Part shown: piece after piece, positions 15,101 through 63,815 of the stretch | Layout: each line of letters opens with the position of its first letter | How positions within the stretch are numbered: position 1 is the first letter of the stretch | From: Phorcus lineatus | Lineage: Eukaryota > Mollusca > Gastropoda > Trochida > Trochidae | Length of the DNA: 64,000 nt | Direction: 5' to 3' | NCBI GenBank assembly: GCA_921293015.1 | Contig: OV121093.1 | Span: 24,624,622-24,688,621 of the forward strand | Made by a program: the position numbers and the translations under genes | Notes under the pieces: generated by a model | The model's input: the letters and a program-made list of their open reading frames with translations, nothing else | Database searches by the model: none | What the model was told of the DNA's origin: nothing

Positions 15101-15225
15101 TCACGTCATCTCGTATCCCTGGCTGTGTGGCGTGCTGGTACCAAACTTTGTGCCCAGGAAGATGGCAGCGAAACACACAAGGAATCCCAGCACCACCATC
15201 CCCATAGCGATTCCGGCAAGTGATC
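15101..15225 (-). CDS. Gene 1 exon 14: transmembrane helix and tail
   Basis: The acceptor TATGTCTGCAG|GA completes a Gly codon, then SLAGIAMGMVVLGFLVCFAA and IFLGTKFGTSTPHSQGYEMT end at TGA (15101-15103). One clear transmembrane helix of about 24 residues with GxxxG-like spacing is followed by a 15-16 residue tail with a tyrosine near the end. The reading frame is fixed by exon 13. Confidence 0.88.
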
Positions 15226-18200
15226 CTGCAGACATACAGGCAGACAGACACTCAGAGCACCTGTGAGTACTGCAAAGCATTGTTAATCCCTGTCCAATTC
15301 ATTTAGGGAATTGAAAATCGATTTCACTTCTTATTTCTTTGAAAATGTAGATTTGGAAATCTCGAAACGCAATATGTTCATACTGCATTGCTCAATTCCT
15401 TACCAGAACATAATGTATTTTATGAATCTTTTTCTCACTGCCTAAGTCCGGACTTGCTGAATGAGTATCTAGACTGTACTCCAGGTTCACAGTCACGGAG
15501 CAGGACCGGTGAAGCACCTGGGAGGGAGGGGGGGGGGGGGGGGGGGTGTGAATAATATTGCTTACATACGTTGTCTTGTTATTCATTGTTTTTACCAAAA
15601 GAGCCTAACAGACAGAGTTTTTCAATAATGTTGGCCTAATGGCCTAAATTGCAGTTACATAATTTCAGATATAGGTGGACAGTGGGCTACCTGAAGGAGA
15701 ATATTCGATGTTGACAGCATTTATAATCATAAATATGAGACGTTGATGCCTAGAGATAAGAATGATTTTGAGTAAAAGTGGGCCAATTTAGATTGTACCT
15801 AAGCTGTAGGTTAATGCGGGTATAAACATATACATAGCCTATTGAGAGTGAACCTAAGCTCCATGTTAATGCGGGTACATACATAAACATAGCCTATTGA
15901 GAGTGTACCTAAGCTCCATGTTAATGCGGGTACATACATATACATAGCCTATTGAGAGTGTACCAAAGCTCTACGTTAATGCGGGTACATACATATACAT
16001 AGCCTATTGAGAGTGTAACAAAGCTCCATGTTATTGCGGATATAAACATTTACATAGCCTATTGAGAGTGTACCTAAGCTCCATGTTAATGCGGGTATAA
16101 AGATATACATAGCCTATTGAGAGTGTAACAAAGCTCCATGTTAATGCGGGTACATACATATACATAGCCTTTTGAGAGTGTACCTAAGCTCCATGTTAAT
16201 GCGGGTATAAACATTTACATAGCCTATTGAGAGTGTACCTAAGCTCCATGTTATTGCGGGTACATACATATACATAGTCTATTGAGAGTGTACCTAGGCT
16301 CCATGATAATGCGGGTACATACATAAACATAGCCTATTGAGAGTGTACCTTAGCTTCATGTTAATGCGGGTACATACATATACATAGCCTATTGAGAGTG
16401 TACCTAAGCTTCATGTTAATTCGAGTACATACATATACATAGCCTATTGAGAGTGTACCTAAGCTCCATGTTAATGCGGGTACGTACATATACATAGCCT
16501 ATTGAGAGTGTACCTAAGCTCCATGTTAAGCGGGTATAAACATATACATAGCTTATTGAGAGTGTACCAAAGCTCCATGTTAATGCATCTTCCTACGCAA
16601 AGCTTAACTATTGCCAGTCTCGAACTGTCCAAGTTAACCCTTGCTGCCGATACACGACTTTCCTGTGCTAGCTCTCTAGCTCACTGCAAAGGAATTTGAT
16701 GGTCCAATCAGAAAGCTCCTAGCAAAAGCTACATCCGGGGACTCGAACAAACATGGCTGCGCCCATGTCGCAGTCCGTCGACTGTACGATTTGTAAAGAG
16801 AAAGTGTTGCCTCCAAAGCGATAAACAATATATTCAAGTTCATTTATGTTTATAGTCAATTTGCGTCATTATTTTTCTACAACCCTGTATCGGACAGCGG
16901 CCTGTCAAAGAATTTATTCTTAAATTGCTTCGGTAAACTAATCAAGCTCGATAAAATTGACCATGATTTGAAGCACCGACTCGATGCACTACGCCCGGCA
17001 AGACTTTATTTCCTGTCATCGTACAATTGTTTTATCTTTTGTGCTTGCAAAACTTAATTGAATATCCGTTGAACCGAAATATTGATTAAATTTTACATAA
17101 ATTAACCGATAAAATTTGAACATCTCTCGATGTCATAACACTCGAAATGTAGTAGCCTGCGACCTCGTTGTATCGCGGTAGTAAACGTTACTCTCAACAA
17201 ACTTTACTTCTTGCAGTCAAAAACCAGGTATGTTGACGTGTACCATTTAAATATCATGTCGTCAATAAAAAAAAATTAAAAAAGTAAAACAATTGTTATA
17301 TTTACTTCCATTTTCACTGATTTTACTGGGTCATTTTCATGTTTGAAAATATTACTTTGGTACTTGGTATGTGCTTTGATATAAAAATTATTCTCTCTCC
17401 GTGAAATATTTACGTTTGGCTTGTACGTCTGTTTGTGAACAGTTGAATAATAAAAAATGAGACTTGGACACATGATAAAGATAGACAATCGTTATTTTCT
17501 TGATATGGTGTCAAAGCTTACCAACTAAAAAGGTGTGCCCGGTAAAACTAAGACAAGTTAAGACCATTTTTGTAGTAATTGTGCCAGAATATTTTTCGTA
17601 GTTTTGCAAATGCTTTTATCTAATCTTAATATCAACTAAAATTAAATTAAATTTATTGTAATGATAATATTACTTTGTTTCGTTCACAGATATTAATTTA
17701 TCAATTAAATCATAATTGCCCTGAAAATAGGGCACCTCTGTTAATATACATTCCATAAACAATATATACTATTCATTGTATGTCTAAAAATATTTTCTCC
17801 CCTATAAATTTGATTTTCACATATTTTCCAGGATAATTTTTCAGCTATTTAAAAATAAACAATGTGTAAACTGTACTTTTTTGATGATAAAATACAATTA
17901 TATAATGGTAACGACCACGATAAATGGGCCTACGTACTTCCCTTTGAAAAATATAAGGGGCGCAGTCATATGTTATTTATTTACCAATACCGATCCTAAT
18001 AACAACAAAAACTTCTTTTCCGTCCATCAATACATTTATAACCTGAATCTTCTTGTTTGAAAGGTTTGCAATGCCAACTTCTTTGTAACCTGAACAAACA
18101 GGTCACTTTCAATGGGCGTGGCCATTTTGATTATATCCCAAATGACACGGCGTCGCCGATTGGCCATAGTAAGGGAGGTAACCTAGATAACTAAAACTCG

Positions 18201-21200
18201 CCAGTGAGGGCGCTGGTATCAAGCCAGAAAAGTCTTGTGTCGGCAGCAAGGGTTAACTTGGACAGATCGAGACTGGCAATAGTTAAGCTTTGCGTAGGAA
18301 GATGCATGTTAATGCGTGTATAAACATATACATACCCTATTGAGAGTGTACCTAAGCTCCATGTTAATGCTGGTATAAACATATACATAGCCTATTGAGA
18401 GTGTACCTAAGCTCCATGTTAATGCGGGTATAAACATATACATAGCCTATTGAGAGTCTACCTAAGCTCCATGTTAATGCGGTTACATACATATACATAG
18501 CCTATTGAGAGTGTACCTAAGCTCCATGTTAATGCGGGTATAAACATATACATAGCCTATTGAGAGTGTACCTAAGCTCCATGTTATTGCGGGTACATAC
18601 ATATACATAGCCTATTGAGAGTGTACCTAAGCTCCATGTTAATGCGGGTACATACATATACATAGCCTATTGAGAGTGTACCTAAGCTCCATGTTAATGC
18701 GGGTACATACATATACATAGCCTATTGAGAGTGTACCTAAGCTCCATGTTAATGCGGTTACATACATATACATAGCCTATTGAGAGTGTACCTAAGCTCC
18801 ATGTTAATGCGGGTATATACATCTACATAGCCTAATGGGAGTGCACCAAAGCTCCATGTTAATGCGGGTACATACATATACACATAGCATCGAATTAAAA
18901 CACTGTCTTTTACATGGAAAGACACAACTACTAAAGATATATTAAATATCAATTGATCGCAGGTTGGAGTTGTTTGGATGACTTTTAATATGTTTAAACG
19001 GTGGTTAAAACAGTGACATGGAAGTGGAAATATCAGTTATAGGACACATTCTTAGGAATGAGATATTTCTTATATTGTGCATGCTTATTATTGATATAAA
19101 TTTGGAAATTTCAGTGAGTGAAAGGGATTTCAAGTTATCCCTTAAAATCAGTGATTTCATGAAAACCCTAGTTTCATCATCTAACTGTAACATATACATA
19201 GCCTTTTGAGTGTACCAATGACACCCGTTACCTGCGCTGAAGCCTGACCCGGCGCCCTGACACTGAGTAAGGGCACTGAGCTGCAACCCGTCTGCCTCGG
19301 TCCTAATCACGAACCCCGGCAGTTCTTCATGTGACTCCATATGCCTCCACTGTCCTTCCCCTTTGTGTTGCACATCCTCTGTTTCTTTACTCTTCTTCTC
19401 CCAACCGGTGTCGTCTTCCTTTTCGGTCGTAATAGACGGACCACGAGTCGTTGCTTTATAACCCCAAAGTTGGTCGGAGTAAGGTACTGCTGTAAGATTG
19501 GTGACCTGAAAGCATGCAGTTTTAGTCCTGGCATAAAATTTTAGGAAATGTATAAGAATGATATGCAAAATGCAAAAGATATCTAATTATATAAGTAACA
19601 TCTAATTACTTTACCAGCAGGTTAATGTCATTCTTCAACATATTAATTTCTATCAATTAAAATTAGCAGAAAAAGGAATAGATTGTTTGGCCTCTGAAGT
19701 AAAGGTAATATTATTCAGCATTGACTTTGGGCTCTCTTGGGTTGTGCAAGGTGTCGAAAATGTCGAAGGATTTCGTCATATGTTCAAACAACGATGTAGG
19801 GATGTTGAAAAACAGCCATGGATTTAAATTCTTGGGAAGTATTCTGAGCTGACGTTTTATCAACAGATTAATGAATCCAACATGTATGAAACGTATCTAT
19901 AATCGGTTAATGTTTATGCTTTTCGCATTGCTCTTAATAAATTCCGTTGCTCGTATCATAATTTGATGATTGAAGTAGGTGTAATATTAAACCAGAAGAT
20001 AGATTATGCCCTTTGTGTATAGTACATGTGCAAGAAGCTGAATTTCACTTTTAATTACAATGTCTGTTTTATTCAGATTTAAGGAGAAGTATTCTCCTAT
20101 ACTATTATTGTGCAGCACGCATCTCTGAAAAAATCTATCTCACTTTGTAAAAGAGATAATAACTTGATCATGAACAGTCTTGAAAAGTGTATTTTCCATG
20201 AACGTGCCAAGTAAGTTTACTCCCGCCTATTGCTTATTGGTCCTCCATTCACTGTATTATTTGTTTTTGTATGATTGGTAATATGGGCCGGTGGCCTTAT
20301 TTACTTTTTGAATTAACCTTTCATCAGTAACATTATGCATAAGTTCACATTAGATCGACATGTAAATCATAAATTCATGTTTCATGAAAAATCAAGCGAA
20401 AAAGCATTTTTTTAAGTATGCCATAGCAGCACAATATATTAGGATATGGTCACCAGTTCTTCTACGACAGCATTCATTGTGGTTACCAGGTCTAATTATC
20501 GACATATGGATATGAATTTAAATATGATTTTTGATAGAAATTGATAAAATAACATTTAATCGAAAAGGTTATTGTCAGTATGTGCGATTAGTAGTAAATA
20601 TGTGCCTTATTTAAGTAAATGAAAAATAGTTTACCCATTACCCACCTTTTTTGTGGGTGAATGAATGCCTGCCAAAATACTCATTAAAACGGTAATTGAC
20701 GTTCTTTTAGAAATATATAGTACGTTCAAGGAAGTTTTTACTGATTAAACGGTACATTGTTACTGTTTGCGGGGGCGACTTGGACGACGAGTTTTCCTTG
20801 CTTCACGGCCGTGGTGAGGTGGGAGGCTGCTGTGGCTAGCGGGGTCTGGGCCGGGAAATTGGGCACATCGCCGTGGAATGGGGCCACGTCCAGTAGCTTG
20901 AAAGTGACCAGGATGTAGGCGTCGTTGTGGTCAACCTTGTGGACAATACCAGTCAGGTTTTTTTATTACACAGCAACATTTTTATTTTTGAGAGAAGCTC
21001 ATTAAGTAACTCATTTAGAACACATATTCTAGATAAAGTGAACAAAATGAAAACACTGAAAGTGAGCATCATGTAAACCAATTGAGAATATTCCTGCTTT
21101 CATAAAAGTGAATTTTGAAAACCTGTCACAGTTACAATGTAGTGTTAGAACATAACACTAGCCACTCGTGTCCATTCCATCAATGTGCCACACTAGGTAG

Positions 21201-24200
21201 TAATCACAGTCACATCTAGTTGGTTTGTCTGAGTACTGGCACGTCTAAGTTATGGGGGTAAAAAGGTTAAGCATCCCTCTGATTTTTCTCAGAGAGGTTA
21301 ACTTTACGGAAGTTTGGGGGTTGCTTAATGTTTTTGCTGTTTATATTATAATTCATAAATTGATGAAATCATATATTTATCATATATTTTCTTAATTCAT
21401 GTAAAATCATAGTTCAGCAACTTTCACAGAAAAATCTGTCAAATACTGTTTTTTGTGAGAACAAATCAAGTAAGTGTAAATTTCTTTATTTCTTCTATTT
21501 TATTTTTATTATGATATTGAAACTAATTCCTGTGTTTTTGCAAACATGAACGTTTTATCTTTTGATCATCAGGCTTTCAGTTAAGTTTTGTTAAGTTAAG
21601 TCCGATTGGATTTCACCATGAATTGTCACTGTTGATTTGGTGTCACAGATGGCTCATTTGTTTTCGGTTTTTGTAGATACTGACGAGAAGTTTACCTGAT
21701 GTACGAGTGTCCACAAAATGTATGTTGTAGACCCTACCCTGAGGGTTTTGATCTGATTTGGTTCCGCCCATTGTCGGAGATTTTGGATTAGGTAGAGAAG
21801 GTGGTGGCTTCGTCAGCTTTATGTTTCGGGAGCCTGCTGATTGTGACAGGTAATCAGGAGTTCGTCTTGCACTTGGAATGAAGTGAATGAATCCAGGCAG
21901 GGTGTCCAGCGAGCTGACCACTGCATACACACTGATATCCAAGTGCGCCCGTAACGCCGAGACTGCATTGAAGTGTTTGACGGCCGTATCGGAAAAATCG
22001 TGTGAGCAGTGTGATCATCGACATAACCAGTTACTGCTTATCTTACAAGCACAGATAGCATATCTTCAGGGTGAATATACGGCTCTGACGGTCCAGCCGC
22101 AGTTCGACCCTACCGTATGAAGATTTCTTAGATCTCTGCAACGGAACACGTCATCGTTTTCTCCACAAGCTCTGGATAACCCGAGGAATGCTGCAGGACT
22201 TTGAGCCGTGTACCGCCGGTCGAGAGGCCGTGGAGGCTCTTTGCGATTAAAGATCGTCGGTCCGGGGACGTTAGGATATCTTCAGCTAGTTTTCTGGTGG
22301 GAAGCGTTAGGAATGTTGATAATAGACGACAAACGCGTCTCTTTGGGTCCGTGACATCAGCATTTAATGACGTCATCAGTCTGTGTGTACAGGTTGCCAT
22401 GAACAGGCAAGTCGTATTCAGACAATGTCGTTACAACTTATGAAGCGCTCGTATAATATCAATTACAATACTGGCAGATATACGGGCGGTGCTATCCAGT
22501 CTCGTTACCAGGAGATGTATTCATAGTTAATATATTCTGCTTCACTATGACAGATATATAAAATATCGTACATCGTCGGGTTCACCTATTACTCGTTATC
22601 TTCACTTGATTAAACATTTGGAATTTTCGAATGCTGACTATCGGCTTCACTTAGAATCAATATTCGAAAATTCCAAATGTAGCATGGTTTTCTGAACTAG
22701 ATAAAAAAAACTACCTCCAAATAACTTCCTTCATCGATGCTTAAAGTGACACAGAGTATATTTTATGATTTTTCATATTGCTTAAATAATACCCCCATAG
22801 ACCATTGGTCCTTGGTGAAGTTCAAATCGCCTACCTACACTTCCATCTTTATCTCTGAAAATGACAAAATCACGATATTTTTCGGTTTTAATGAAAATTT
22901 GGACTCGACCACATAATTGTTCAAAAGACCAAATTCTGGGCCCAATTTACATGACAAACGATTGAACAGCTCAAATGTTTAACTTATATCATATTCGTTC
23001 AAAAAGATCTTGAAATTAATCCGACCATGGCAATTGGTTGGATTTATGATCCGTGACTAATGATTGTATTACAGAGATTGTACAATATTTACAGGTAAGA
23101 GCGGTTGAATGACGTACTGTTAGCTCTGCGACACGCAGGGGAGAGACGAAGGCGGTAGTGACGAGGGACCAGACCACGACCGACTTGAAGTACATTTCGT
23201 CCGATAATACGTGAAGGGTGAAGTTACCTGAAACACAATCTCATTAAAAGCTGGTCTTACGTATAAGCTATCTAGGTATAGCTCGGCATGATCTCCGTGA
23301 CCTTCCACTTCAATTGGTCAAATCTCGGCTCTAACGAGTGTTTCTATACAGTTGTTTTGATAGCAAATGGACTCATTACTTGTGTGTAGGTTTATGATAT
23401 GATTTCCCATAAACACAACTAAGGCACCTGTGAGAAGGAGTTTGAAGAATAATCTGTGTTGGGCAGTGTAGCAGGGACTCATGTCGTAGTTCAGGATACT
23501 GCCATATTGCGTCTCCTCATAGTCGTAGAAGTTGTAGTGGAAATGTTCAACCTAGTCATCAAACCAAACAATAGGACAAAGGTCTGTGAATAGAGGCAAA
23601 TAAGTTACTCGCCTTGTGGAGTATCAAAAGAGAGCCAGAAACAAAAGACAAACGGACGCACATGGAGACACGATGACGGAAAGTTTGAGAAGGAAGTAAT
23701 TAGACATTACCGGGTTGGTGTGTATGGTGACGATAATACCGACCGGCATCTGGGACTGTTGCTTGTAGCCTGCGTTGGACTGCCATTTCGTCTGTAACAT
23801 CACTCATTAAGAGTCATTCGAGCAACATGTGTTGATACGTTGCATAATAATAAATAATTATCATGCATTCTTCACTGACAGTGACATTATGTAGATTTGT
23901 AACTACAATAAAATACGTCGTCTACAATTCCTTTTGACTGATTAAGATACAAAAGAAATATTATAAAGTCAAGAGTGGTATGACGTTTATAAAATTATTT
24001 CACAACTGCGTTTTAAGACCATTAACTGCTTTTGTCATATTGTAGTGAATATGAGTCAGTCTGTTTCAAATCCACCTTGTTCCGAGGTCTAAAGCTTTAA
24101 AATTTGACTCTGATAACAGCTTGGTGGCATTTAAAGATCGACTGAAATGACCCATTTCAACTTTCAAAATTCAACTTTGACAGTGACTTCACTTTAAATT

Positions 24201-24315
24201 CCTAAAATCGGCCAATAAACAACTTAAATACAGCTTTTTCATAACACCATTGTACAGAACCGAAAGCTTCAACTGAAGCGTGAGTCCGCAGGGGCGTAGG
24301 AGCGAATTTGAAAGT

Positions 24316-24348
<33 letters not shown>

Positions 24349-24607
24349 CTTGAATTAAAATTTTGTAACCAAAAAAAATTAGGACATAATACTGAAGTCA
24401 GTTTAATTCCTTGTTTGATTGAATGTTTTAGTTCTACCCTCAGAGTAGTTTTAGAACTACCCTCAAAGTAGTGCATAGTAACTGTTTTGTAACAATACTA
24501 GACCAGTTATTGGGAAATATGTAATAGAAAGGGGAAAATAGTCATTTTGAAAAAAAAAAACATTTCGAAAAAAGGTGTGGGGGGGGGGGGATGCTAAGCC
24601 CATCCAA

Positions 24608-24638
<31 letters not shown>

Positions 24639-49700: not shown

Positions 49701-50107
49701 CAAGCCTTGATGTTCCGTCGGCGAGTGTACACGGGGAAAGAATTTTGACTCTGTAGCTATCAAACCGTTGCTTTCAGTCAAATAAACGGAAAATCATCCC
49801 TTGATTATAATTTTGACTGCATAAATTTGGAAATCGTGAAATGTTTTAATAAATACTTACCTTATATACTGTTTACTGTCGAATATGTCAGGATGTTTCC
49901 GCCGACCCGATCCACATGATAACAAACTGATAGCCCTTCTGAGGACCTCAAACAGCGTTATCTCTGTATACACGTATCTATAAGTGTTATCACATTGCTC
50001 GCTTTACAGGGTACGGTCAGAACAGTCAAAAAGTCAACATATCAGCTGGAACAAACTGCTTAACAATTTAATGGTACAAATTGCAAGATAGGAATCATTA
50101 TAAATCA
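46729..50107. other. 5' flank of gene 1 and intergenic DNA
   Basis: It must hold the promoter of gene 1, but no TATA or initiator could be placed with confidence. It contains (TA)n tracts at 48933-48985 forming a hairpin around GAACCAATTCAACTTTTC. Open frames at 47183-47536, 48042-48299 and 48997-49326 have no recognisable domains. Confidence 0.4.
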
Positions 50108-50490
50108 CCTATTTTAACCATGGATAAGTATACAACACCTAGATTAACCATGGATAAGTATACAACACCTAGATTAACCATGGATAAGTATACAACACCT
50201 AGATTAACCATGGATAAGTTCAAAACACTAGATTAATCATGGATAAGTATACAACACCTAGATTAACTAAGGATAAGTATAAAGCACCTAGATTAACCAT
50301 GGATAAGTATACAGCACCTAGATTAACTAAGGATAAGTATAAAGCACCCAGGTTAACCATGGCTAAGTATACAACACCTAGATTAACTAAGGATAAGTAT
50401 AAAGCACCTAGATTAACCATGGATAAGTATACAGCACCTAGATTAACCATGGATAAGTATACAGCACCTAGATTAACCATGGATTACAAC
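50108..50490. repeat. 30-bp satellite, subfamily 1
   Basis: About 12 units of ATTAACCATGGATAAGTATA + CARCACCTAG, each with a CCATGG palindrome. A 60-bp higher-order pattern (CCATGG unit alternating with CTAAGG/AAAGC unit) appears from 50240 on. Confidence 0.95.
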
Positions 50491-50660
50491 GGATATCTGC
50501 TGTCCTTGACGCATTGCACTGGCTACCTGTGAAAAACAGAATCGAGTACAAAATCTCTCTCCTAACATTCTATACAGTGCGAGGATACTTTCAAGAGAAA
50601 GCTGAAAACTTTCCTTTTCCCAAAATAAACTTATGAAAGCACGAACCGCCCCATGGTTAA
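50490..50660 (+). pseudogene. LINE ORF2 C-terminal snippet within the satellite
   Basis: ISAVLDALHWLPVKNRIEYK and ISLLTFYTVRG, then in another frame TFKRKLKTFLFPK. LHWLPVxxRIxYK...LLTF is a hallmark of CR1/Rex-like RT C-termini; FKxKLKTxLF normally lies much further downstream, so an internal deletion joins the two. Confidence 0.8.
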
Positions 50661-50703
50661 TCTAAATCTAAACCTAGATTAACCATGGGGCGGTTCGTGC
50701 TTT
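50636..50703. repeat. Perfect palindrome joining LINE end and satellite unit
   Basis: GCACGAACCGCCCCATGGTT + AATCTA pairs exactly with TAGATT + AACCATGGGGCGGTTCGTGC with a ~10-bp spacer. The inner part is a satellite unit (TAGATTAACCATGG) in both orientations. Confidence 0.92.
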
Positions 50704-50759
50704 GTATCATCAATAAAACGTTTGATGATTATTTAGCTAATCTAATTTTCGTCCAGCAT

Positions 50760-51880
50760 TAAAAAGTCCATTTTAACAATGGTTCAATATTCAGCACCTT
50801 ATCTCATTATAGCTCAGCAGTTAGCACCACGTCTGACTATGGTTCAATATTCAGCATCTGTTTTCACCATGATTCAATATTCTGTACCTATTGTAACCAT
50901 GGTTCAATATTCTGCCCATATTTTAACCATGGTTCAATATTCTGCACTTCTTTTAACCATAGTTCAATATTCAGCATGTAGTTAAACCTTCTTAGTATTC
51001 AGAACCCATTTTAACCTTGGTTCCGTATTTATCAACTCGTTGAATCACGGCCAAATATTCAACCATAGTCTAAAATTAGTTCAATTTTCAACATCTATCG
51101 TAACTCAGTATTCAGCACCTAGTTTAACTCTAGTTCACAAATCAGCACCTAGCGTAACCCTACTTCAATATTCAGCACCTAGTGTAACCCTAGTTCAATA
51201 TTAAGCACCTAATGTAACCCTAGTTCAATATTCAGCATCAAGTGTAACCATGGTTTAATATTCAGCACCTAGTGTAACCCTAGTTCAATATTAAGCACCC
51301 AATGTAACCCTAGTTCAATATTAAGCATCAAGTGTAACCATGGTTTAATATTCAGCACCTAGTGTAACCCTAGTTCAATATTCAGCACCTAATGTAACCC
51401 TAGTTCAATATTCAGCGCCAAGTGTAACCATGGTTCAATATTCAGCACTTAGTGTAACCATGGTTCAGCACCTAGTCTACCTTAGTAAAGCTCTTTGTGT
51501 AACCACAGTTAAGTGTTCAACATCAAGCTTTGTTTAGTATTAGCCATGGTTCAGTATTTGCACCTAGTTTAACCTTTGTTCAGTATTCCGTACCTAATCT
51601 AACCATGGATATATAAGCACCTTGTTTAACCTTGGCTAAGTATTTAGAACGTATTTTAACCTTGGTTCTGTATTCAGATCCTAGTTAAACCATGGTTCTT
51701 TATTCACCACCAAGTTAAACTTGAGTTGAGTGTTTTCCGCCTATTTGAACTATGAATAAGTATTCAGCACCTAGTATAACCTTGGTTCAGTATTCAGCAC
51801 CAAGTTTAACAATGGTTTCCTATTTACCACCTCCTTTAACCATGTTTCAGTATTCAGAACCTAGTTTAACCTAGTAATCA
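50760..51880. repeat. 30-bp satellite, diverged subfamily 2
   Basis: About 37 positions of a diverged unit TTCAATATTCAGCACCTAGT + GTAACCNTAG/CCATGG. It is more homogeneous at 51110-51470 and strongly diverged elsewhere, with insertions and deletions. Confidence 0.9.
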
Positions 51881-52735
51881 GCACTAACTACTCTAACCAT
51901 GGATCAGTAATCAGCACCTACTCTAACCATAGATCAGTAATCAGCACCTACTCTAACCATGGATCAGTAATCAGCACGTACTCTAACCATGGATCAGTAA
52001 TCAGCACGTACTCTAACCATGGATCAGTAATCAGCACCTACTCTAACCATGGATCAGTAATCAGAACCTACTCTAACCATGGATCAGTAATCAGAACCTA
52101 CTCTAACCATGGATCAGTAATCAGCACGTACTCTAACCATGGATCAGTAATCAGCACCTACTCTAACCATGGATCAGTAATCAGAACCTACTCTAACCAT
52201 GGATCAGTAATCAGAACCTACTCTAACCATAGATCAGTAATCAGCACCTACTCTAACCATGGATCAGTATGCAGCACCTACTCTAACCATGGTTCAGTAA
52301 TCAGCACGTACTCTAACCATGGATCAGTAATCAGAACCTACTCTAACCATGGATCAGTAATCAGAACCTACTCTAACCATAGATCAGTAATCAGCACCTA
52401 CTCTAACCATAGATCAGTAATCAGCACCTACTCTCACTATGGATCAGTAATCAGCACCTACTCTAACCATGGATCAGTAATCAGAACCTACTCTAACCAT
52501 AGATCAGTAATCAGCACGTACCCTAACCATGGATCAGTAATCAGCACGTACCCTAACCATGGATCAGTAATCAGCACCTACTCTAACCATGGATCAGTAA
52601 TCAGCACGTACTCTAACCATGGATCAGTATTCAGCACCTACTCTAACCATGGATCAGTAATCAGCACGTACCCTAACCATGGATCAGTAATCAGCACGTA
52701 CTCTAACCAGGGATCAGTATTCAGGACATAGTTTA
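51881..52735. repeat. 30-bp satellite, homogeneous subfamily 3
   Basis: About 28 units ATCAGTAATCAGCACCTACT + CTAACCATGG with only a few recurrent variants (CACGTA, GAACCTA, CATAG). The shared variant patterns between distant units indicate recent amplification of blocks. Confidence 0.95.
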
Positions 52736-53379
52736 ACCATTGTTTATATTCTTGAAAACAATCGACATTCCAATTTTGTTTCGAGACATTTTTGGAACTT
52801 AAAACATGTCAATATACACTATCCGATGATAGGAATTAAACCTATTTCATATCAGCATCTTATATTCAAAGAATAAAACAATTAATAGTCTTCAATAAAA
52901 ATCAAAGAACAGCTCAATACATATGTACATGTACACGTTTTGGCAGAAGTAGAGGTCTTAAGTAAAATAAAAATGAGTTTTAGTGATAAAACTTGGTAAA
53001 CAGCATCAACTCATATCTGTCCTTTTGTCTGTTTTTCACTTATTTCGATATCACGCTTGAGTGATCGGCACAACACATCAGTAACATATTGTCCGCTTTT
53101 TGATCAAAATCGCGACTTTATACCTTTTCTTCATTAACCAAAACTTTATTGTCTCAATACAAAACCAACTAACTTCAATGTTATACTTTATTCCGACAGT
53201 TATTAGTTTTCGATCAAACGACACTATTAATAGTGTTTGGCATATTTGACACTAACAACAGTACTTTGCATGGCCTTACGTAATTGAGTAAATATTCAAG
53301 AAAAAGAAAATCAAGCTAATTTCTTTCAATGAAACATCAAGCTAAGTGTTACTGTTTTGAGAAAATATTTAACTGTCTA
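52736..53379. other. Nothing recognised
   Basis: AT-rich spacer between the satellite and the TIR element. Confidence 0.5.
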
Positions 53380-54110
53380 TGTATCATCCCAACTTGGGAT
53401 CGCGTCCCATCTTAAGTTGGGACGTCCCATCTTGAGATGGGACGGCGGATACTTTAACATGTTTATAATATTCTTATTCTAATGTTGAATTTAGTAATAA
53501 CATGATAACATGTATCATTTAAATAAGCGCTTTAAGGCCCTGGAGAGATATTTTGATTTTATGTTGATTTTCATGACTTATTGGCTATATCTATCTCTCA
53601 TCGCATACGAGTCTTTCATCATAGTACAATACGATTTCAAAAGTAATTCTTATACAAAATTTTATAAATTATTTCATTATATTCTTAAATATTTTTAATT
53701 GTGACAGCATGTTAAGCAAATAAAAAAATAAATATACACTCAAAACCCACTCTTAGTGAATACCAAGAATGCTAATGCGTTGTAATCAGTTCAATTTCTT
53801 ACACATAAACCGTTCCGTTAAGCAAGATTTCAATGTACTCATTGTGTTTGATAGTCGAAACTAAGACTTTATGTTTCTTAAACATAATTCACAAACACTA
53901 ACCTATAAGTGGTGTTCCGTCAATGCTTACAAGATGTCCAGTAAATAAATCCAGTTATGCCTCCTCATATTTCCGGTCGAACCTGATCTGATCAGTGTCG
54001 TGGTGCAAATGGCAAACATACCTGTTTGGTAGTTCAGAGAAGGGTGTGGGGTGGGTGGAGGGGGGAGGGGGGTCCGAAAGAAGGGATTTTGGTAAACATC
54101 CGGTTCGGTT

Positions 54111-55253
54111 CAATCAATCTTTATTCAGTACTGAAGAGGCCACAGGCCTGTAGTACATTACATGTATAATGAGTATAAAGTCACTTATCAGTTATTTTCT
54201 AATACAATCTTTCTTCTTAACGCCATTGCAAAATATATGTACATCGCCAAATTCTGTAATAATAATGTGTTATTAGCTGTTAACAATAAAATTAAATTTC
54301 GTTCACTAGGATTTCTATAATAATACGGTTTGAGATACTTTTTTCGTAGATCCGCATAGACAGGGCATATAAGTAGGAAATGTAATTCATTTTCTATCTC
54401 ATTTCTGTTACAAAGTTGACATATTCTATTTTCTCTTGGCACACCTGAATATCTACCAGTTTCAATGTATAATTCATGGGATGAGCAACGAAATCGGGTT
54501 AGGGCTACTCGAAAATTTTTTACATTAACTTTTGATAAGTAGTTTTCAAAACATATATCAGATTTCCATTGATTGTAAAATAAACATTTAGTTGACAGAT
54601 GCAATGATTCGGACCATGATTGTAAATACATATCTTTCAATCTTTGGGTAAATGATGAAATAAATTGGGTAGGGAATTGAATATTATCATCGTTCCATAT
54701 ATAACCATATCCCGTTTTGTTCAGCAATTCTTTTATGTCCGTCACCCAATTTCGTTTCCCATTTTCGTCGTACAGTTTCATCATTTCATAACACATTTTT
54801 GGGAATCTATGACATGGCATTTTCTGTAATTTTAACCAGTATTTTATGGCTCTAATAGAGGAATATATAAATAAGGGATATCTACCTAATTCTCCATAAA
54901 TCATAGTACTACAAGTACTCTGTTTTACCCCAAGAAATCTTTTGCATGCATATAGATGAACTCGTTCGATACTTTCATAATGTCTTAATCCCCATATTTC
55001 AGATCCATAAAGAAGATTTGGGCTAATCTTGGTATCGAAAATTTTGAAAAATGTATTTGAAGACATATCACCCAAATATCTCATATATTTATAAACTCCA
55101 ATTAAAACTTTGACTGCTTGCGCTGATGTAAGTTTTGTGTGCTTTGACCAGGCAAGAGTGTTAGAGAAATTTATGCCGAGGTATTTATAGACATTAGTTG
55201 TTTGAAGTAGGTTCCCTTGATAATACCATTTTTCCATTTTAGATAATTGCCCA
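54111..55253 (-). mobile_element. 5'-truncated CR1/L2-like LINE with 10-bp TSD
   Basis: The element is flanked by CGGTTCGGTT at 54101-54110 and 55254-55263, a perfect 10-bp target duplication. It is in minus orientation, truncated in the RT thumb, and ends with AATAAAGATTGATTG, a short (GATT)n-type tail. An AGGCC-TGT-GGCCT hairpin lies close to the 3' end (54130-54142). Its reading frame is intact, so the insertion is young; it lies inside the 53380-56495 element. Confidence 0.93.
54188..55237 (-). CDS. LINE ORF2 C-terminal region, intact frame (349 codons)
   Basis: From the first Met: KYLGINFSNTLAWSKHTKL (RT thumb YLG motif), then SPNLLYGSEIWGLRHYESIE, CKRFLGVKQSTCSTMIYGEL (the LLYGxExWG and xFLGV motifs), LTRFRCSSHELYIETGRYSG, and the Cys/His knuckle CQLCNRNEIENELHFLLIC. 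No stop interrupts 349 codons. The N-terminal endonuclease and the catalytic RT palm are absent because of 5' truncation, so it cannot be active and any Met start is an accident; the open frame only reflects recent insertion. Confidence 0.85.
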   Translation of the reverse strand: MEKWYYQGNLLQTTNVYKYLGINFSNTLAWSKHTKLTSAQAVKVLIGVYKYMRYLGDMSSNTFFKIFDTKISPNLLYGSEIWGLRHYESIERVHLYACKRFLGVKQSTCSTMIYGELGRYPLFIYSSIRAIKYWLKLQKMPCHRFPKMCYEMMKLYDENGKRNWVTDIKELLNKTGYGYIWNDDNIQFPTQFISSFTQRLKDMYLQSWSESLHLSTKCLFYNQWKSDICFENYLSKVNVKNFRVALTRFRCSSHELYIETGRYSGVPRENRICQLCNRNEIENELHFLLICPVYADLRKKYLKPYYYRNPSERNLILLLTANNTLLLQNLAMYIYFAMALRRKIVLENN

Positions 55254-56699
55254 CGGTTCGGTTATGACACCAATACCTGTGTGTCACCTTCCAATTAGTG
55301 ACAAGAATAGGTACCAATTGTACATGAGCATGCTTGTAACACTACAAAGGTACACGCCAAGCGTTTGTTGTTTTAGTCAATGATTATCATTTATATTTAT
55401 CAAGGCATTGGCCCCTATCGGCAATATCACTGATAGGAAGCAGACGTGATCAAACCCTAACCAAAAACAACAACAAATGTTTATGTTTATTGTTATTGCA
55501 TTGTTATTCGATGGAAGTTTTTTGACCAAACTGAATATATTCAAAATATTTTTTTCATAAACAGAACGATTATGATGTAAAGTAACCAAAATGAAATCTA
55601 ACATCATCCATTGATTATTTATGGGGAAAAAGCAGGCTTTTTTCATAGAATTTTAAAAAATTTAGAACATAGTTTCCAAGATTTACAAAAGAAGATTATG
55701 GTTTAAACATATTTAGCCTTACACTACCTACGGTGGGCAAATTGGTGCCCAATCATTCGTCCTCTGTCATGCCAAGCTGTAACATTAACATATTCAGTCT
55801 ATTCAGTGCTGGATTGTAACGGTGGAGAGTACCTTAATTTCTGCTTATAGAAGGTTTTTGCATGGATTATTCATTTCTTTGTATCAGGTACGTTTTTTAA
55901 ATATATATTTAAAAAAAAAGCGATTTATCACTAGTGTTGTAAAACTTTGATCTGTATTAGAATAACTTCATATCTTTGATTGTTAAAAGTTTATACCACC
56001 TCTTTGTAAATAAACTAAGATACAAAGATGTCTCTGTGAAATGTGGAGCCGTTTGGTTTCTCTCTGTTTACAGATGTTTGATCTACGCATGTATTGGTCG
56101 TTTGAAAAATGCTGAAAACTATTATCTAAATATAAATCTATATATTGATCTGATTTTGTTATGTCGCTTAACAAATGTGATTCAATCAGTAATCAAATGG
56201 GACTTTAAATAATTGTTTGAGTAGTGTTGAATCGTTCGTACTCGATATTAGATAAAACCGAGTCAGAAAGTGAAGTAAATGAACATCAAATCAAATTTTC
56301 TCCGTAGACGTGAAAAGAATATAACAGAATTATCTAAAACATGTTTTACTGACACAATTCATTATAAAATATGAATATTATTAACATGTTTTAGTATCCC
56401 CCGACCCATCTCAAGATGGGACGTCCCAACTTGGAATCCCAAGTTGGGACGCGTCCCATCTTAAGATCGGGCGGATCCGCAGTTGGGATGATACATCTAT
56501 ACCTCGATTAATTAAATGACTGAAACATAAGAAAGTTTAACCTTCAAGACAATTATAGAGGTGATGCTTCTGTGGAAATGAAAAATAATATGATTTGGGT
56601 GACGTCATGATCAAATTATTTTGATTTTTGATTGATTAAATCAGTCTAAAATATACATTACATAAATATATCTTAGTTTAACTTAAGAATTACAGACTG

Positions 56700-56835
56700 A
56701 CAAGGAAATCTTTTACATCAGTTCATTACCAATCGATTTTAAACAAATGTGATCATCAGGTTAGCTGTTGTTGCTACGATTGTAGCGTTAACAATGACAA
56801 GGAACGTTATTAATGATGTTATATGCATGCCACTT
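56700..56835. repeat. Repeat shared with 28800-28920
   Basis: ATCAGTTCATTACCAATCGA, ACAAATGTGATCATCAGG and TTATATGCATGCCAC follow in the same order as in the 28.8-kb copy. Confidence 0.7.
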
Positions 56836-56839
56836 TTAT

Positions 56840-57554
56840 AAGATATACAGCAAATGCGACGTCAACCTTATTTAGTATAATGTACAGTTCAGCTTGGGCA
56901 TATATCATTTATAAAAGATAGTTCTTTGATTTCCCTTAGCTCTTCAGCCTTTGTGCATATTCAATATATTGGACAGATTGCAAACTAGGGATGTAAGTTT
57001 CATATTCATCTATATGCGCAATAATTACTTAACATCTATACTTTGGAGTTTTAATTCGAGGTTTATTTACCCGCACTCTAGTCCTACGTTTTCACTGAAT
57101 AAAATGACGACACGCGTGATGAGGCACTATTGTGGGCGGAGCTACGGGACTGTGACATAGAAAAAGTCTTGTTCTCCATTATATCGATCTATAAGTGTCA
57201 GGATCCCTTATGTTTCATCTCATAATTTGTTTAACCACTGACTGGCTCATACATGGTTTGAAAGTTCACCTATAAACTGTAGTATAGATGTCGTCGACAA
57301 GGTCTTAGGTTTATACAATTTTAATCGTACCATTCCAACCGTTTATCAGCCAGTGAACAAAGACATTAGGAAATGTATCTCTTATATAAGCCATCTAGAT
57401 TTATATGCATTTATTTATACCAGTAAATACTTTTTGGTCAGCATTGCTTTCCTTGAACACACACTTGTAGTACAGTTATAAAGACGTGTGTTCTTTCTAT
57501 CTAGTCAGTCAATCACCATTATGTAGCCTACATTTTGTTGTTCCCAGGACACTG
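56840..57554. other. Nothing recognised
   Basis: AT-rich sequence without repeat or coding pattern. Confidence 0.45.
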
Positions 57555-58870
57555 AACGATTACGGCCTAATCCGTCGAATTTTCAAAAATGAACTGTACC
57601 TATCCGTCGAATAATGCTTGAGTGATTTTGTACCGATCGGTCGAACCTTGGCGAACAAGAGACACTCGGAGAATCTAAGTTAATTAATGAAGGGGTGTAG
57701 GGATTGTTACAATCATTACGATCGCTTGTTTACATGAGAAGGTCTTATTTTCTTTCATATTTTTATATTTATAGAAATATTATTGATAGCTGTACACTGC
57801 AATATTATCTTAGTAAATCAGTCCCCTACTTATATAGAAAGTATTTAGCGAAATTTCGACTAAGCTCACACAATCTTGCAATTGAAACTGGCAGATACTA
57901 CAATGTAACACTAATGAAAGAAAATGTACATTTTGTAAAGATACTGTTGAAGATGAATTCGATTTCATATTATTATATAATTATGTCCATGTTATATTGA
58001 TTTTAGACGAGTTTATATTAAACCTTATTATTATCTACGTCCTTCCGTATTTAAGCTTATCCAATTATTAAGTGTTAAAAATGTAAAAGAACTCTGTAAC
58101 CTAGGGAAATATTTGTATAAAGCCAGTTGCTTAAGGAATGAATTGATTGTTAGAGTTTCGTGATTTTTTGTACATTCTCCACAACATAAACCTATTATTA
58201 TCATTGTTTAGTCATTATCCACCTGTACCAATCCCCGTCTTTATTATGAACTGATTATCTGTAAAGATAAAAGTGATAAAGAATCTGAATCTGAATCTGA
58301 ATCTTATTTTCTTAGACGGATAACGGATATATTACCGAGTAATCATCATGCTGTAAAACTCATTTCTGTTTATGTAGACTGTAAACTTCATACTTTGAGT
58401 AAGGTTATCAGTCGAATGTTTTATTGTTCCTTTGTGTCCCTGATATTCAAATACATGTATGACATATGCATCATCGCCTATTTGGATTTTGTCGGACAAT
58501 TACTCGGAGTGTGGTAGATTTGGACTGGTCGATAAGTCTGTCACATGTAATGTATAGAATGTTTATAATGTATGAAATGTTTATATGATCATGTATTCAT
58601 TCATAAAATACATAATACAAATGAAGATGATATATGTCATATACATCGACGGCACGTTCGTTTATATGGATAATGTATTCACTCATCAAATACAACGAAT
58701 ACATCGTAACATCAAATGATCAGAATGGTCAGTCTTAACACCCCTTTTGTCTTATTTTGGAACGTTCCAACATTATGTAAGCCAATCAACAATTTAAATC
58801 ACAGTACCGATCCGTCGAACGGATTTTTCTATCCTAAAACTAGAAATTCGACGATTAGGTATGCGACCCA
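57555..58870. mobile_element. Possible TIR element (CTAATCCGTCGAATTTTC ends) hosting a LINE
   Basis: ACTGAACGATTACGGCCTAA + TCCGTCGAATTT at the left resembles the complement of 58830-58880 (GTTCAGTGG..., CCTAATCGTCGAATTTC), and both subterminal parts carry GTACCGATC(G/C)GTCGAAC in opposite orientation. The ends are diverged and no target duplication is clear, so borders are approximate. Confidence 0.5.
57690..58312 (+). mobile_element. LINE 3' end, degenerate, (AATCTG)n tail
   Basis: YRKYLAKFRLSSHNLAIETG RYYNVT is the RT C-terminal signature; ENVHF/CKDTVEDEFHF-like residues follow in shifted frames, then RRVYIKPYYYLRPS and LGKYLYKASCLRNELIVRVS before the stop. The element ends GATAAAGAATCTGAATCTGA, a 6-bp repeat tail. 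At least two frameshifts. Confidence 0.8.
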
Positions 58871-59439
58871 CTGAACGAGTCTCTTAAACATGGTTTTCTC
58901 TGATTCCCGGATCCCACAACGTGTTATTAAAGTACACAAATTGTTATAAGCTTCTTATGTGACTTGTAGCCCACGCGCTTACCTTAAATGAACATCAGTT
59001 CGGCAAAGAAAACGAAATCTGAATGATCAGTCTTTTACAGTTTTTTCGTAAATTCTAAATTCAACTTTCGAGATTGTTTTTACACAGAATTATTTACTGT
59101 TTCTATTATAATTTTCAATAGTAATATATAATTATCATTCTCTTCAAGACAAAGCATCTATTAGAAACATAATCAATTAGCTTTTTTTTATCGTAATCGC
59201 TCAGCTGAAGTAACCAAACTGATTCTAACACGAAAATCCGACCTAATGGACTTGACTTGCATCTTGAAGAAGGGGTTACGCGGATGGGGGATATGTGTAA
59301 ATATATTTATATCATATATGCTTAAAACATGATTGTATATCAAAAAGACGGCCGCGGCCTTCGGGGATCGTTGATTATTTTACAATATTTATACAATGCT
59401 ATCCATGTTTGCTACGAAGTACCCGTCAAATGAGACGCA
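58871..59439. other. Nothing recognised
   Basis: AT-rich; a small GCGGCC-rich patch at 59350-59370. Confidence 0.45.
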
Positions 59440-59573
59440 GGTAATAGAGCTGTGGTCTAACAATCAAGGTTTCTTGACTCTCATACTATCAGAAGTTTCT
59501 TTTCATACGTGGGACGTTTTTGGCATTTATCATGCCTGAAGCAAAAGACCACGCTATGTATTATGAAAGAAGG
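59440..59573. repeat. Repeat shared with 62875-62960
   Basis: GTGGGACGTTTTTGGCATTT and ATCATGCCTGAAGCAAAAG also occur at 62909-62950 in the same orientation. Confidence 0.75.
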
Positions 59574-61599
59574 CAGCAGGCACATATACGTCTACGCCTA
59601 TCCTAGACGTCTAAGGATAGACGTGTAAAAGACGTCTTAATATAGTATAATCTGTGGGACTAGAAAGACGTCTAAGCCTAGACGTTGCTAAGAAGTCTAC
59701 AGGTAGACACCTGTAGACGTCTATCAGACGTTTATTAGACGTTTATTCGACATATATTAAACCTCTATTAATAGTTTAAATACCTCCCAAAATATTTAAC
59801 AGACGTCTAAAAAAGGTTTAACATGTGTCCTATAGTTTTTGTGTTATACCCCAGTATAATAATATTATGCAGTGGGAACTTCATAAGGATTCAGGGCTTC
59901 AAACAAAAACCTGTTTTTTGTAAGGCACAATTGCATATTCTACATGTAAATGGATACATTTAAGTCCATTATTCCAATAATTAAAACAACATAATGACTT
60001 ATAATGGATACCATTTTAGAATTTGATATGGTAACTAAATTTGAGGTTTGGGTTTAAATTTTCAAAATTTTCAGGCGAAGTGATGAGCAATTTTGCCTTG
60101 AAAAAAAACAAGAAACAAGCTCAAATAAGATCAAATATTTATTCAATATAAAAATCTATTTCATTCAATCAACATATTTAATTATACTGTAGAAATAACA
60201 CAAAATTCAAACTTTACTTAGAATCAGATTTGTCAAATCTTCAGATCATTGTCCCAAGCTGAAACGTAAAGGGTAAGGTCCAGATTCAAGGCTATTTTCT
60301 TCCTGCATTTTCTAAGAGCAAGTTAAAAGACTTCCGCCGTTCTTGAGAATTGTATCCTTGATCGCGTCCTTGTAAAAGATTGGTGAAAGTATCTGAAAAT
60401 AAATTGAAACCTTAATTGTTATCTCGACTCATAATCATGATCAACATCTGTACCTATAAATTCAGAAAATCAAAATATAAGTAAACACTGTTAAATATTT
60501 GGTAACCTACGTGTCCGGAAAAAATCAATTTGATAAAAAAATAAATGTACATAGACACCAAACAAAACTTATATTACTAACTTGAAACTAGTAATAGAAG
60601 CACCTATACATAAGTCAACTATTATAAAAAGGTTACTTACGCAGTGAATTAAAATGACAGACTGTTAATGAAAATGTTCCACACTGAATCAGTTTCTCTG
60701 CATTTATTAAGGGTGTATTGATAATATTCCACTATGAAAGGTCGGGATATAAAAAATCTATATATATAAAGAATTATTTGGTTTAGAATAAAATAGAGAA
60801 AGCTAAATATGTTTCAAATATGTGTACGAATAAAACACTACACACATATTTTGAAGTAATTACGAGCTGAAAGCTGGAAGAAGGGGCTCTACCATTAGCT
60901 GCACGACCATTGTAGACAAATGAAAGATACCGACGAATGAGCATCTTAATTACTGACAAGGTAAAACTAGTTAGCGTGTCCTTTATACAGAAAACAAAAT
61001 CTTACCGTAAATAATAGAAGAAAAAACCGTAAGGAACATTACCCCAGATGCAATGATATAGCAAAATCCCATCTCTTTTGAGAACAAAGAAATTGAAAAT
61101 GGCGCCTATTTAACAGCGCATGCGTTAGGGTCGCAACTCTGCATGGAAAAATTATATGTGCATTGCATTGACTACAATATCGATCCGGATTGAAGTTCAA
61201 ATCTCTTCGCCTAGAACATTTCATTTTTTTCTTATAAATTTGTACTTTTGACAGATCTGTAGGATGTAATATGAATTACATTTGAGTGTTATATATCATT
61301 TGATGCAAATATTGTCTTTACCTACAAAACATCTATCATGTTAGTAAAAGAAATCTTTCAATATTTAATTCTTTTTTTTTAGAAAGGTTTGTTTATATAC
61401 AATAAGCAAAGGAAACATCTTTCAATCTGAAATATCAAGGCATTATAATAAAATTGTATGAAAGTGCAGGTCTACCTTAAGACGTCCTTTAGACGGTCTC
61501 TTCAACGTCTACGCTTTCACGTCTAAATGGGTACGTTGAATAGAATCTAACCAGATCTAGACCTAATTTAGACGTCTAATAGACGTCTTGTCTCTGCTG
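59574..61599. mobile_element. 2.0-kb element with AGACGTCT-rich ends
   Basis: The outer ends CAGCAGGCACATATACGTCT and the complement CAGCAGAGACAAGACGTCT are inverted. Within 250 bp of the left end and 150 bp of the right end AGACGTCT/TAGACGT-type motifs occur more than a dozen times. The middle is AT-rich without coding frames. It lies directly against the shared repeat at 59440-59573. No target duplication recognised. Confidence 0.65.
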
Positions 61600-61601
61600 G
61601 G

Positions 61602-61722
61602 ATACTTATACTTATACTTATACTTATACTTATACTTATACTATACTTATACTATACTTATACTATACTTATACTTATACTATACTTATACTTATACTAT
61701 ACTTATACTTATACTATACTTA
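61602..61722. repeat. (ACTTAT)n / ACTATACTTAT microsatellite
   Basis: Units of TATACTTATACT in 6-bp and 11-bp steps over 120 bp. Confidence 0.95.
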
Positions 61723-61740
61723 TCAACACATGGGACTTAG

Positions 61741-61968
61741 TTATTCATTACTAAGAATCCAATTCCTCCAGATGCTCTTGTGGCTATTTGTGTAGAGAAA
61801 ACCAATTTTGTCCGTACCATTTGTAATTTTGCAGTTATATTGTTTCGTCTTTATGTAAAATGTCCCACATAAACCTAAAATATCACAGTCTAGAACATCA
61901 ACAAAATCACACTTAAAATTAAAATTGACTATGTTTTTGTCATTTTTCTTAAAACTCTGGATTTCCAT
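61741..61968 (-). pseudogene. Probable LINE ORF2 N-terminus (endonuclease start)
   Basis: The minus frame NIVNFNFKCDFVDVLDCDIL and GLCGTFYIKTKQYNCK resembles the first strands of LINE endonucleases (F...D.DI..L.ET). It lies just downstream of the ORF1 remnant at 62046-62800 on the same strand, as expected for ORF2. It stops at 61741, next to the microsatellite. Weak similarity, judged mainly by context. Confidence 0.5.
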
Positions 61969-62045
61969 ATACCAAGCCGAAGACCCTATCTACGCTTCAC
62001 ATGTGCGCCCTCATTTGCTGTTCTTAGTTTTCCATTTCTGGTAAG

Positions 62046-62800
62046 TCAAAGATTATTGTCCTTGTCTAGTGTTTTCATCATTAGTCTCATATTACCTTCC
62101 ATTTTCAGTTCCTTTCTGCTTTTAAAGGAGTCAATGTTAACCTTGTCCATACCTTTCATGGTTTTCAGTTTATATTTGGGTTTTGATACATTAATCTTTT
62201 GCTCTTCATTTTCAAGTACACATTTAACATGTCCAGGGTTGATTTTGTCTATCACATTTCACAATTTTCACCTCTTTTGAATCAAGGACCTTGTGAATTA
62301 AAGCTTGTACATCTTTGGTCAGGTCTTGCTGTGATTCTTTCTCACCTTCAGGCTTCAACCCTTTTTATCACAATCATCTTATTTTCATTTAGGTCCCCTG
62401 TTTCTTAACGATTTCTGCGTAAGAGTTTTCAATGATGTCCCTCTTAAATTCTTCCCTGACTTTGCCAACTTCAGATTCAATGATCTGACTTTTTAAAGAC
62501 ACTAGCCTTGTTTCTAGATTAATTTTAAGATCACCCATACGTATGTTTACAGATTGAACTGCCCCTCAAAGGTCTGTTGATAGTTCAGAAACAGCATTTA
62601 ATATCAAAAGTTCAGTGTTCTGGGTTTTTTTTGTTCAGAAATTCCTTCGGCATGTTTAGAGTTCTCCCTCTTTCCAGTATACACTTCAGTTCCCTCTACT
62701 AGCACGGGCGTCACGGCGGTGGCCATTGCCACTTCAACAAAACCTGCCTCACTGTTCATGTTCTTACTCAGTACACCACTATTTATCTCTCTGAAGTGCG
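62046..62800 (-). pseudogene. LINE ORF1 protein: coiled coil, RRM, C-terminal domain (broken)
   Basis: Read from 62800 down: NTELLILNAVSELSTDL, stop, GAVQSVNIRMGDLKINLETR and VGKVREEFKRDIIENSYAEI form a heptad coiled coil. In another frame KGLKPEGEKESQQDLTKDVQ and SKEVKIVKCDRQN are the RRM, then PGHVKCVLENEEQKINVSKP and KSRKELKMEGNMRLMMKTL are the end of the RRM and the basic C-terminal domain. This is the layout of LINE ORF1 RNA-binding proteins. One stop and at least two frameshifts inactivate it. Confidence 0.8.
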
Positions 62801-62874
62801 AGTTTCAGCAAATGTATATTGTATAAGTTCTAAGTGTGTTGTTGTCTAGCAGTTTGTGATTGCAAATGCGCACT

Positions 62875-62960
62875 TACACACACTTTGAGCAAAACTATTC
62901 TTTTCATAAGTGGGACGTTTTTGTCATTTATCATGATTGAAGCAAAAGTACCACAGTCTG
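62875..62960. repeat. Repeat shared with 59505-59573
   Basis: GTGGGACGTTTTTGTCATTT and ATCATGATTGAAGCAAAAG match the 59.5-kb copy; this one is not interrupted by the AGACGTCT element. Confidence 0.75.
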
Positions 62961-63679
62961 TATTATTAAAAAATATACTAACAGCCATCCTGGCCGGGAC
63001 AGATAAAGAGCACTGGATTCTTGAAAATAAACCATTGTTAACACAATAGAGTGATGTCATCACAATGAATTAATAATAGTTATTCCACTGAATGAAGATA
63101 AGTGCAGGTCCCGTCCCGTCCTGTTTGTGATAACAGTTATCTCAGTTTATCTGATTCACGGACTGCTCGCTCGTTGTACCAGACCGCCATATTGAATCGC
63201 CACAAGGTAGGTCGCTCACATCCAACACGCGATTTAGTCATATAGTCCTCACTCTCAACCAGCCTTTTAAAATGATAGACAAATAATATCCTTATAAATC
63301 TTTAAATTTGATATTGATCGATTTACCTTCCCGAAATTTAGAAGAAAATGTTTGAATAGAAACTGTTTAACGTAGGGAATGACATTAATGATATATTCAG
63401 ATATCACCCGAATATACTTTTACATATGTAAAACAAACACTATCTAAGTTCACACCATCAGGTTTATCAACAGGAAAAAACGTGGTTGATCTCTATTTGA
63501 TAGTAATATCTACCATGAAGTCATAATCCTTGGAGCGGTTTATTTATTTCAACACCAAAGACCAAAAATCGAACTAACAGTAAATGTATAGGTCACTCAA
63601 ACTATTTTGACTGATAAAGTGTCAACCAAAATTTGAAAGCAGACGAATACAGGCTACACGGCGATCACTGTCAGCCACA
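62961..63679. other. 5' flank of gene 2
   Basis: It should contain the promoter and 5' UTR of the plus-strand paralogue. No TATA box could be assigned with confidence. Confidence 0.4.
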
Positions 63680-63815
63680 ATGCCGATGCGGTGGATCAGC
63701 CCTGCCATGGACATCGTGCTATTCACTCTTTTGTTAACACTCTATGCGCCGTGTGCAGCGGATAAGAAGGGATGGGACACGGATGTGTGTGTGCAGCTCC
63801 CCACCAGTCAGAATG
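63680..63815 (+). CDS. Gene 2 exon 1: signal peptide of divergent paralogue (partial)
   Basis: ATG at 63680 opens MPMRWISPAMDIVLFTLLLT with a strong hydrophobic core and a probable cleavage after CAA, then DKKGWDTDVCVQLPTSQNG. A donor follows at CAGAATG|GTGAGA, phase 1. The motif GWDxDVCxQLxxSxNG and the intron phase are the same as in exon 1 of the minus-strand gene, so this is probably the first exon of a paralogue that continues beyond the window. A second Met (63707) could also serve as start and would shorten the leader. Nothing further of this gene was found in the remaining 185 bp. Confidence 0.75.

Follow-up and report, generated by a model that had tools for sequence, protein, structure and literature searches.

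Two predicted genes on contig C25 of Phorcus lineatus, here termed A and B, are paralogues in inverted orientation, 17 kb apart, and their exons 2 and 3 appear to have been homogenised by recent gene conversion in a pair that is otherwise saturated at silent sites. Gene A lies wholly within the stretch of 64,000 nucleotides that was analysed (the window; coordinates given without a contig name are window positions). A spliced model from the A/B alignment gave gene A 14 exons on the minus strand, extending from 46728 to 15101, with an open frame throughout, 703 residues and a TGA stop at 15103-15101. All of its exons are given here on that strand. Exon 1 (46620..46728) of the spliced model encodes a hydrophobic leader and GWDKDVCEQLSMSEN. 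The first domain is encoded by exon 2 (45514..45723), which is homogenised except for its last 8 bp, by exon 3 (44628..44876), which reads YLGVQTVRGIQCDEW...WYFS, and at its end by exon 4 (31692..31849). The second domain starts in exon 5 (31455..31577) and ends in exon 10 (23428..23551), with exons 6 (29634..29739), 7 (29092..29252), 8 (28216..28317) and 9 (23711..23791) between them; exon 8 carries the second-domain sequence RTVRGIECDVW...WYF and has 85% amino acid identity with B. Exon 11 (23118..23227) and exon 12 (20756..20935, with weak splice sites in the model) belong to the third domain, exon 13 (19232..19505) holds the end of this domain and an acidic linker, and exon 14 (15101..15225) encodes the predicted transmembrane helix, the tail SQGYEMT and the TGA stop. 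An earlier note on the window had described a complete 14-exon minus-strand gene of 703 residues; its exon count was reached independently, and the same count and length were obtained in the spliced model.

Exon 1 of gene B (63680..63815, plus strand) encodes a hydrophobic leader and GWDTDVCVQLPTSQN. It had correctly been recognised as the first exon of a plus-strand gene, and when about 100 kb beyond the window was examined it was found to continue as a complete gene. Downstream of 63815 lie 13 gene B exons in the same order as in gene A (exons 2-14, plus strand, 64989-81723 in window numbering, C25:24689610-24706344, past the window end), giving 14 exons and 705 residues, with a TGA stop, ending at 81723. 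The two genes diverge, and their start-to-start spacer is 16,951 bp (46729..63679). A and B gave a full-length alignment, in opposite orientation and with introns at matching positions. The model builder imposed equal intron phases on A and B, and phase identity is therefore not independent evidence; independent of this rule are the open frames and the frame-consistent GT-AG sites at aligned positions, found for all 14 exons. A shared motif, GWDxDVCxQLxxSxNG, had been noted at the start of both genes. It is present in both first exons, but its final G is intron read-through: the spliced motif in A and B is GWDxDVCxQLxxSxND, in which the split codon G|AT encodes D. The exon-1 motif alone is weak evidence of homology, because the DNA pattern for GWDxDxC matched the genome 20 times and a reversed control 12 times. 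The homology of A and B follows from the 14 colinear exons, and the predicted genes are inverted paralogues because they align over their whole length with matching intron positions. Paralogy by inverted duplication and a receptor-type layout, which the earlier note had proposed together with the advice to extend the sequence beyond 64000, predict the second gene and align the proteins, are thus borne out: the exons past 63815 give a protein of the same type, and the 705-residue B aligns end to end with A.

The domain limits in the A protein were set by eye. Residues ~41-252 and 255-465 are two copies of one domain of ~210 residues, and comparison of domain 1 with domain 2 by hhalign gave a probability of 96.9% and an E-value of 1.5e-10 over 174 columns. 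Both contain YxGxxTVRGIxCDxW and WYF. A third domain (~466-590) is followed by the acidic linker, which is 25-29% D/E. The third domain is reminiscent of SEA domains; it matched no Pfam family at E<=10. Each protein has one strong C-terminal hydrophobic helix, with best 19-residue Kyte-Doolittle means of 2.75 (A) and 2.84 (B), and the tail SQGYEMT is identical in the two. At the N-terminus the best means were 1.36 (A) and 1.81 (B), a measure of hydropathy only, by which the leader of A is weakly hydrophobic. By eye, each of the 11 cysteines of A has a counterpart in B, whose leader contains an extra cysteine, and five sequons are shared among the eight in A and the seven in B. A and B belong to one multigene family, whose products, judged from these predicted features, are probably type I membrane glycoproteins.

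The homogenisation of exons 2-3 had been overlooked in the earlier note. In these exons, four-fold sites are identical between A and B at 57 of 62 positions (92%) and amino acids at 141 of 153 (92%), compared to 35 of 129 (27%) and 282 of 541 (52%) outside them. The four-fold sites outside exons 2-3 are at chance level, that is, saturated. The longest identical coding run is 140 nt, and the maximum in 10,000 codon permutations was 47. The similarity falls into two tracts. Tract 1 (45522..45938, minus strand) matches B 64773-65190 with 98.6% identity in 418 columns. Its intron part is the terminal 215 bp of intron 1, with three mismatches and one gap, and its coding part is 202 bp of exon 2, stopping 8 bp short of the exon end. 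Tract 2 (44599..44835, minus strand) matches B 65386-65622 with 97.0% identity in 237 columns; it begins at base 42 of exon 3 and runs 29 bp into intron 3, and six of its seven mismatches lie in the first third (by eye). The homogenised part falls in the first domain, within roughly its first 150 residues. Intron 2, which separates the tracts, measures 637 bp in A and 146 bp in B, and blastn found no similarity between the two at E 1e-3. Since intron 2 was not homogenised, either two conversion events or one interrupted event would be needed. A search of the animal's own genome, in which the best candidates were scored, revealed no third locus with similar exons 2-3, the next best exon-3 match being 54%. 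What is found in this diverged pair is a bounded tract of high identity that includes silent and intron sites, the pattern by which conversion is recognised. Since coding constraint cannot preserve similarity in an intron and at silent sites, and no third similar locus was seen, the comparison points to recent interlocus gene conversion between A and B as the simplest account.

Three other explanations bear on these exons or on gene A itself. Purifying selection on the first domain could in principle keep exons 2-3 similar, and these exons are the strongest matches in other relatives too. Seven relatives, however, hold only ~34-56% amino acid identity to A or B there, and selection on the protein does not account for a four-fold identity of 92% against 27% elsewhere or for the near-identical stretch of intron 1. 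These silent and intron sites already refute the reading unless the assembly is wrong, and we consider it extremely improbable. An assembly or polishing artefact, in which one copy was built from reads of the other, would also yield a homogenised tract. Together, though, the two tracts differ by 12 substitutions and one gap and are set in divergent flanks, and identical copies would be the likelier outcome of a consensus error; this explanation is very unlikely. It is also unlikely, to a slightly lesser degree, that gene A is a non-functional copy with damaged splice sites. Three sites in the predicted model have negative splice scores, namely the exon 2 donor, which lies just 3′ of the tract end, and the acceptor and donor of exon 12. 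Against decay, the 14 modelled exons contain no stop or frameshift, the protein identity to B far exceeds the silent-site identity, and the cysteines and tail are retained.

The earlier note had called the gene products LolA-like and named DUF7959, a label that is not established for A and B. Metazoan proteins bear the names 'LolA-like' and 'DUF7959' in UniProt and Pfam, and could be the A/B family if those models describe it. The accessions PF25898 and PF25899, taken to be those of such families, are absent from the Pfam copy searched, and in that copy the 703-residue product had no LolA-like or DUF7959 match. The earlier note had named just this outcome as refuting its label, but with those accessions absent the result does not disprove it. 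The whole A and B proteins matched no Pfam family at E<=1. Among 10 domain pieces searched at E<=10, eight had no match and two had one chance-level match each to unrelated families. Neither protein matched ependymin (PF00811) above the curated Pfam cut-off. Searches of the PDB gave nothing significant by sequence for the gene A protein (best E 1.5) or by domain profile (best E 0.85). In the open-licence literature we found no mention of 'DUF7959' and no mollusc protein of the A/B type under 'LolA-like', and among the matches listed there was no description of a membrane-anchored tandem LolA-like protein.

The LolA/ependymin fold is an open half-barrel of ~11 strands with a hydrophobic groove. 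A profile was built from the ependymin genes of this genome and PDB chains and compared with the A/B domains. Domain 2 gave a probability of 7.6% and an E-value of 0.0046 over 21 columns by hhalign, and its score of 23.7 was above those of 100 of 100 column shuffles. The score of a merged domain profile was equalled or beaten by three of 100 shuffles, and domain 1 gave nothing (E 0.41). The possible match to ependymin consists of one strand pair with its cysteine. A structure of exon 3 alone, predicted from nine sequences, had a pLDDT of 61, and its better half is a three-stranded meander. None of the 274 Foldseek matches to this model reached E 0.001. Seven of the best 50 of these matches, at E 1.2-2.7, were VioE (three), LprG (two), LprF and LppX; the last two have the LolA fold. 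GH11 xylanases rank above the LolA-fold entries among the same best 50. VioE and LprG are described as LolA-fold proteins in excerpts of a study of EPDR1 (PMC6363788). Judged from these profile and model comparisons, the chance that domains 1 and 2 have a LolA-type fold is somewhat better than even. It is nonetheless quite possible, if less than probable, that the same converted pair carries another extracellular beta fold in domains 1 and 2 and serves adhesion or recognition rather than the holding of a lipid or pigment. Such a fold would fit the lack of matches to LolA or ependymin in Pfam, among PDB sequences and, at a significant level, among structures, and recognition families are clustered and diverging as well, like this one with its dozen or so relatives; the LolA-fold hints, weak but concordant, and a similar domain-end pattern (by eye) argue against it.

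The history that we favour, with fair confidence, joins an old inverted duplication and a later partial conversion to repeated domains that are LolA/ependymin half-barrels holding a hydrophobic ligand at the cell surface. The old duplication would have produced A and B, and both would have been kept as coding genes while, outside exons 2-3, amino acid identity fell to 52% and silent sites became saturated. At a much later date, exon 2 together with the 3′ end of intron 1, and the greater part of exon 3, would have been transferred from one copy to the other by conversion, so that the first extracellular domain became near-identical again over most of its length. The two repeated domains would be half-barrels of the LolA/ependymin type, each presumed to hold a hydrophobic ligand; a single helix, followed by a short conserved tail, would anchor them at the cell surface. 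If this fold is right, each protein would have two hydrophobic extracellular grooves, and A and B may be membrane-bound carriers of, or receptors for, lipids or pigments. Lipid binding by A and B is an inference, as is the view that the short tail makes intracellular signalling by either protein alone unlikely. That most of the first domain has been kept common by conversion may be chance, or it may have been retained for a shared ligand, two outcomes that one pair cannot tell apart. In a more elaborate form, which we consider rather unlikely, the conversion is not random but retained because the first domain binds one ligand or partner common to A and B: a single module would evolve in concert and the other two domains would diversify, amounting to modular concerted evolution of a family of cell-surface lipid or pigment receptors. 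Were that true, it would be a receptor family for which our searches found no description.

Ependymins offer both likenesses and differences. In EPDR1/MERP (PF00811), which has the LolA/VioE/LprG fold, the ependymin domain is secreted, has ~200 residues and contains disulphides, as a likeness to A and B. In contrast, A and B match no ependymin model in Pfam and combine two tandem domains with a third one and a membrane anchor, and the ependymin genes above the Pfam cut-off sit on C7 and C17, apart from A and B. Excerpts of the literature report that ependymin-related proteins have expanded in molluscs, partly via tandem duplication (PMC6280359), that the groove seen in EPDR1 crystals is occupied by an unidentified ligand, which was modelled as PEG, and that the protein binds membranes with anionic lipids (PMC6363788), and that a sponge ependymin carries carotenoids at its dimer interface (PMC10470211). 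For inverted gene pairs of Caenorhabditis, conversion has been proposed to homogenise divergent paralogues, and in the example described in an excerpt of that study two nearly identical arms flank a spacer of 126 bp (PMC1803023). In A and B, by contrast, the starts are 17 kb apart, silent sites are saturated and only ~0.65 kb is homogenised. The processes involved, inverted duplication and conversion between inverted paralogues, are already known, and A and B look like a new case of them. The pair provides complete models of two genes from a clustered family of animal membrane proteins that had no model in the Pfam copy searched, and a clear candidate case in which conversion would have rewritten one domain of an otherwise saturated pair; trees of exons 2-3 would misdate the A/B duplication as recent. 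If a LolA-type fold is confirmed, A and B would add a membrane-anchored tandem form to a fold whose known animal examples are mainly ependymins, secreted or lysosomal.

The search of the genome with A gave 65 places. Sixteen of these stop at query residues 189-193, where exon 3 ends, with A and B included and a weakest E of 0.019; 12 are on C25, two on C5, one on C13 and one on C37. Nine of the 16 cluster at C25:11.89-12.16 Mb, where weaker second- and third-domain matches were also found. The genome has about a dozen relatives, most of them in one cluster on the contig of A and B. Six of the seven relatives examined have, as do A and B, a phase-1 donor one base past the exon 3 WYFS/WYFT codons; L042 does not. 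Nothing similar to the exon-1 motif was seen at the loci of the seven relatives, within short flanks. Viral contigs and phages contained no relatives, with five pattern matches and none confirmed. A second divergent pair of the family lies at 12.144 and 12.150 Mb (C25:12144001-12154000, L055), and by eye its exon-3 translations are plainly different, without homogenisation like that of A and B. A further B-like copy, C (C25:24787604-24794933), 81 kb past B, consists of four pieces, 83-97% identical to B, that comprise exons 12-14 and a portion of exon 11; it lacks intron 12 and the initial 79 nt of exon 13. As a donor for the homogenised exons this copy (C25:24.7876-24.7949 Mb) was ruled out, being a 3′ fragment only. 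The ependymin genes of the same genome (PF00811) are at C7:35.13-35.15 Mb and C17:15.17-15.18 Mb, with seven of 19 matches above the cut-off. A 19,115-base contig bears the mitochondrial cox1 gene (PF00115, E 8.6e-132), with TGA in its frame as a tryptophan codon. Under table 5 its frames read, on one strand, as nad3, nad2, cox1, cox2, atp8 and atp6 in that sequence, the names other than cox1 being assigned by eye; early-branching gastropods and some other molluscs share this gene order, and the host is thus likely to be a lophotrochozoan, probably a gastropod.

The intergenic region (46729..63679) contains a minisatellite (50099-52751) and a retroelement-like ORF (54188-55261). Shared inverted arms were sought by self-comparison, and only short inverted matches were found between A and B, the longest of 105 columns at 81% identity (53387-53491 with 56356-56449). 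The minisatellite is large, with a 30-bp period, and one of its frames is open for 288 codons (51865-52731), as is allowed because the period is a multiple of three. A 55-bp minisatellite occurs twice within intron 13 of gene A (15782-16586 and 18305-18882). Five pieces of the minus-strand ORFs 8025-8950, 25346-25790, 36916-38117 and 54188-55261 had no Pfam match at E<=0.01; by eye these ORFs have the look of retrotransposon reverse transcriptase/RNase H remnants. An ORF on the minus strand at 32881-33378 has a GIY-YIG domain (PF01541, E 3.1e-6) and resembles a plus-strand ORF past the window (115829-117166); it is possibly a remnant of a Penelope-like element.
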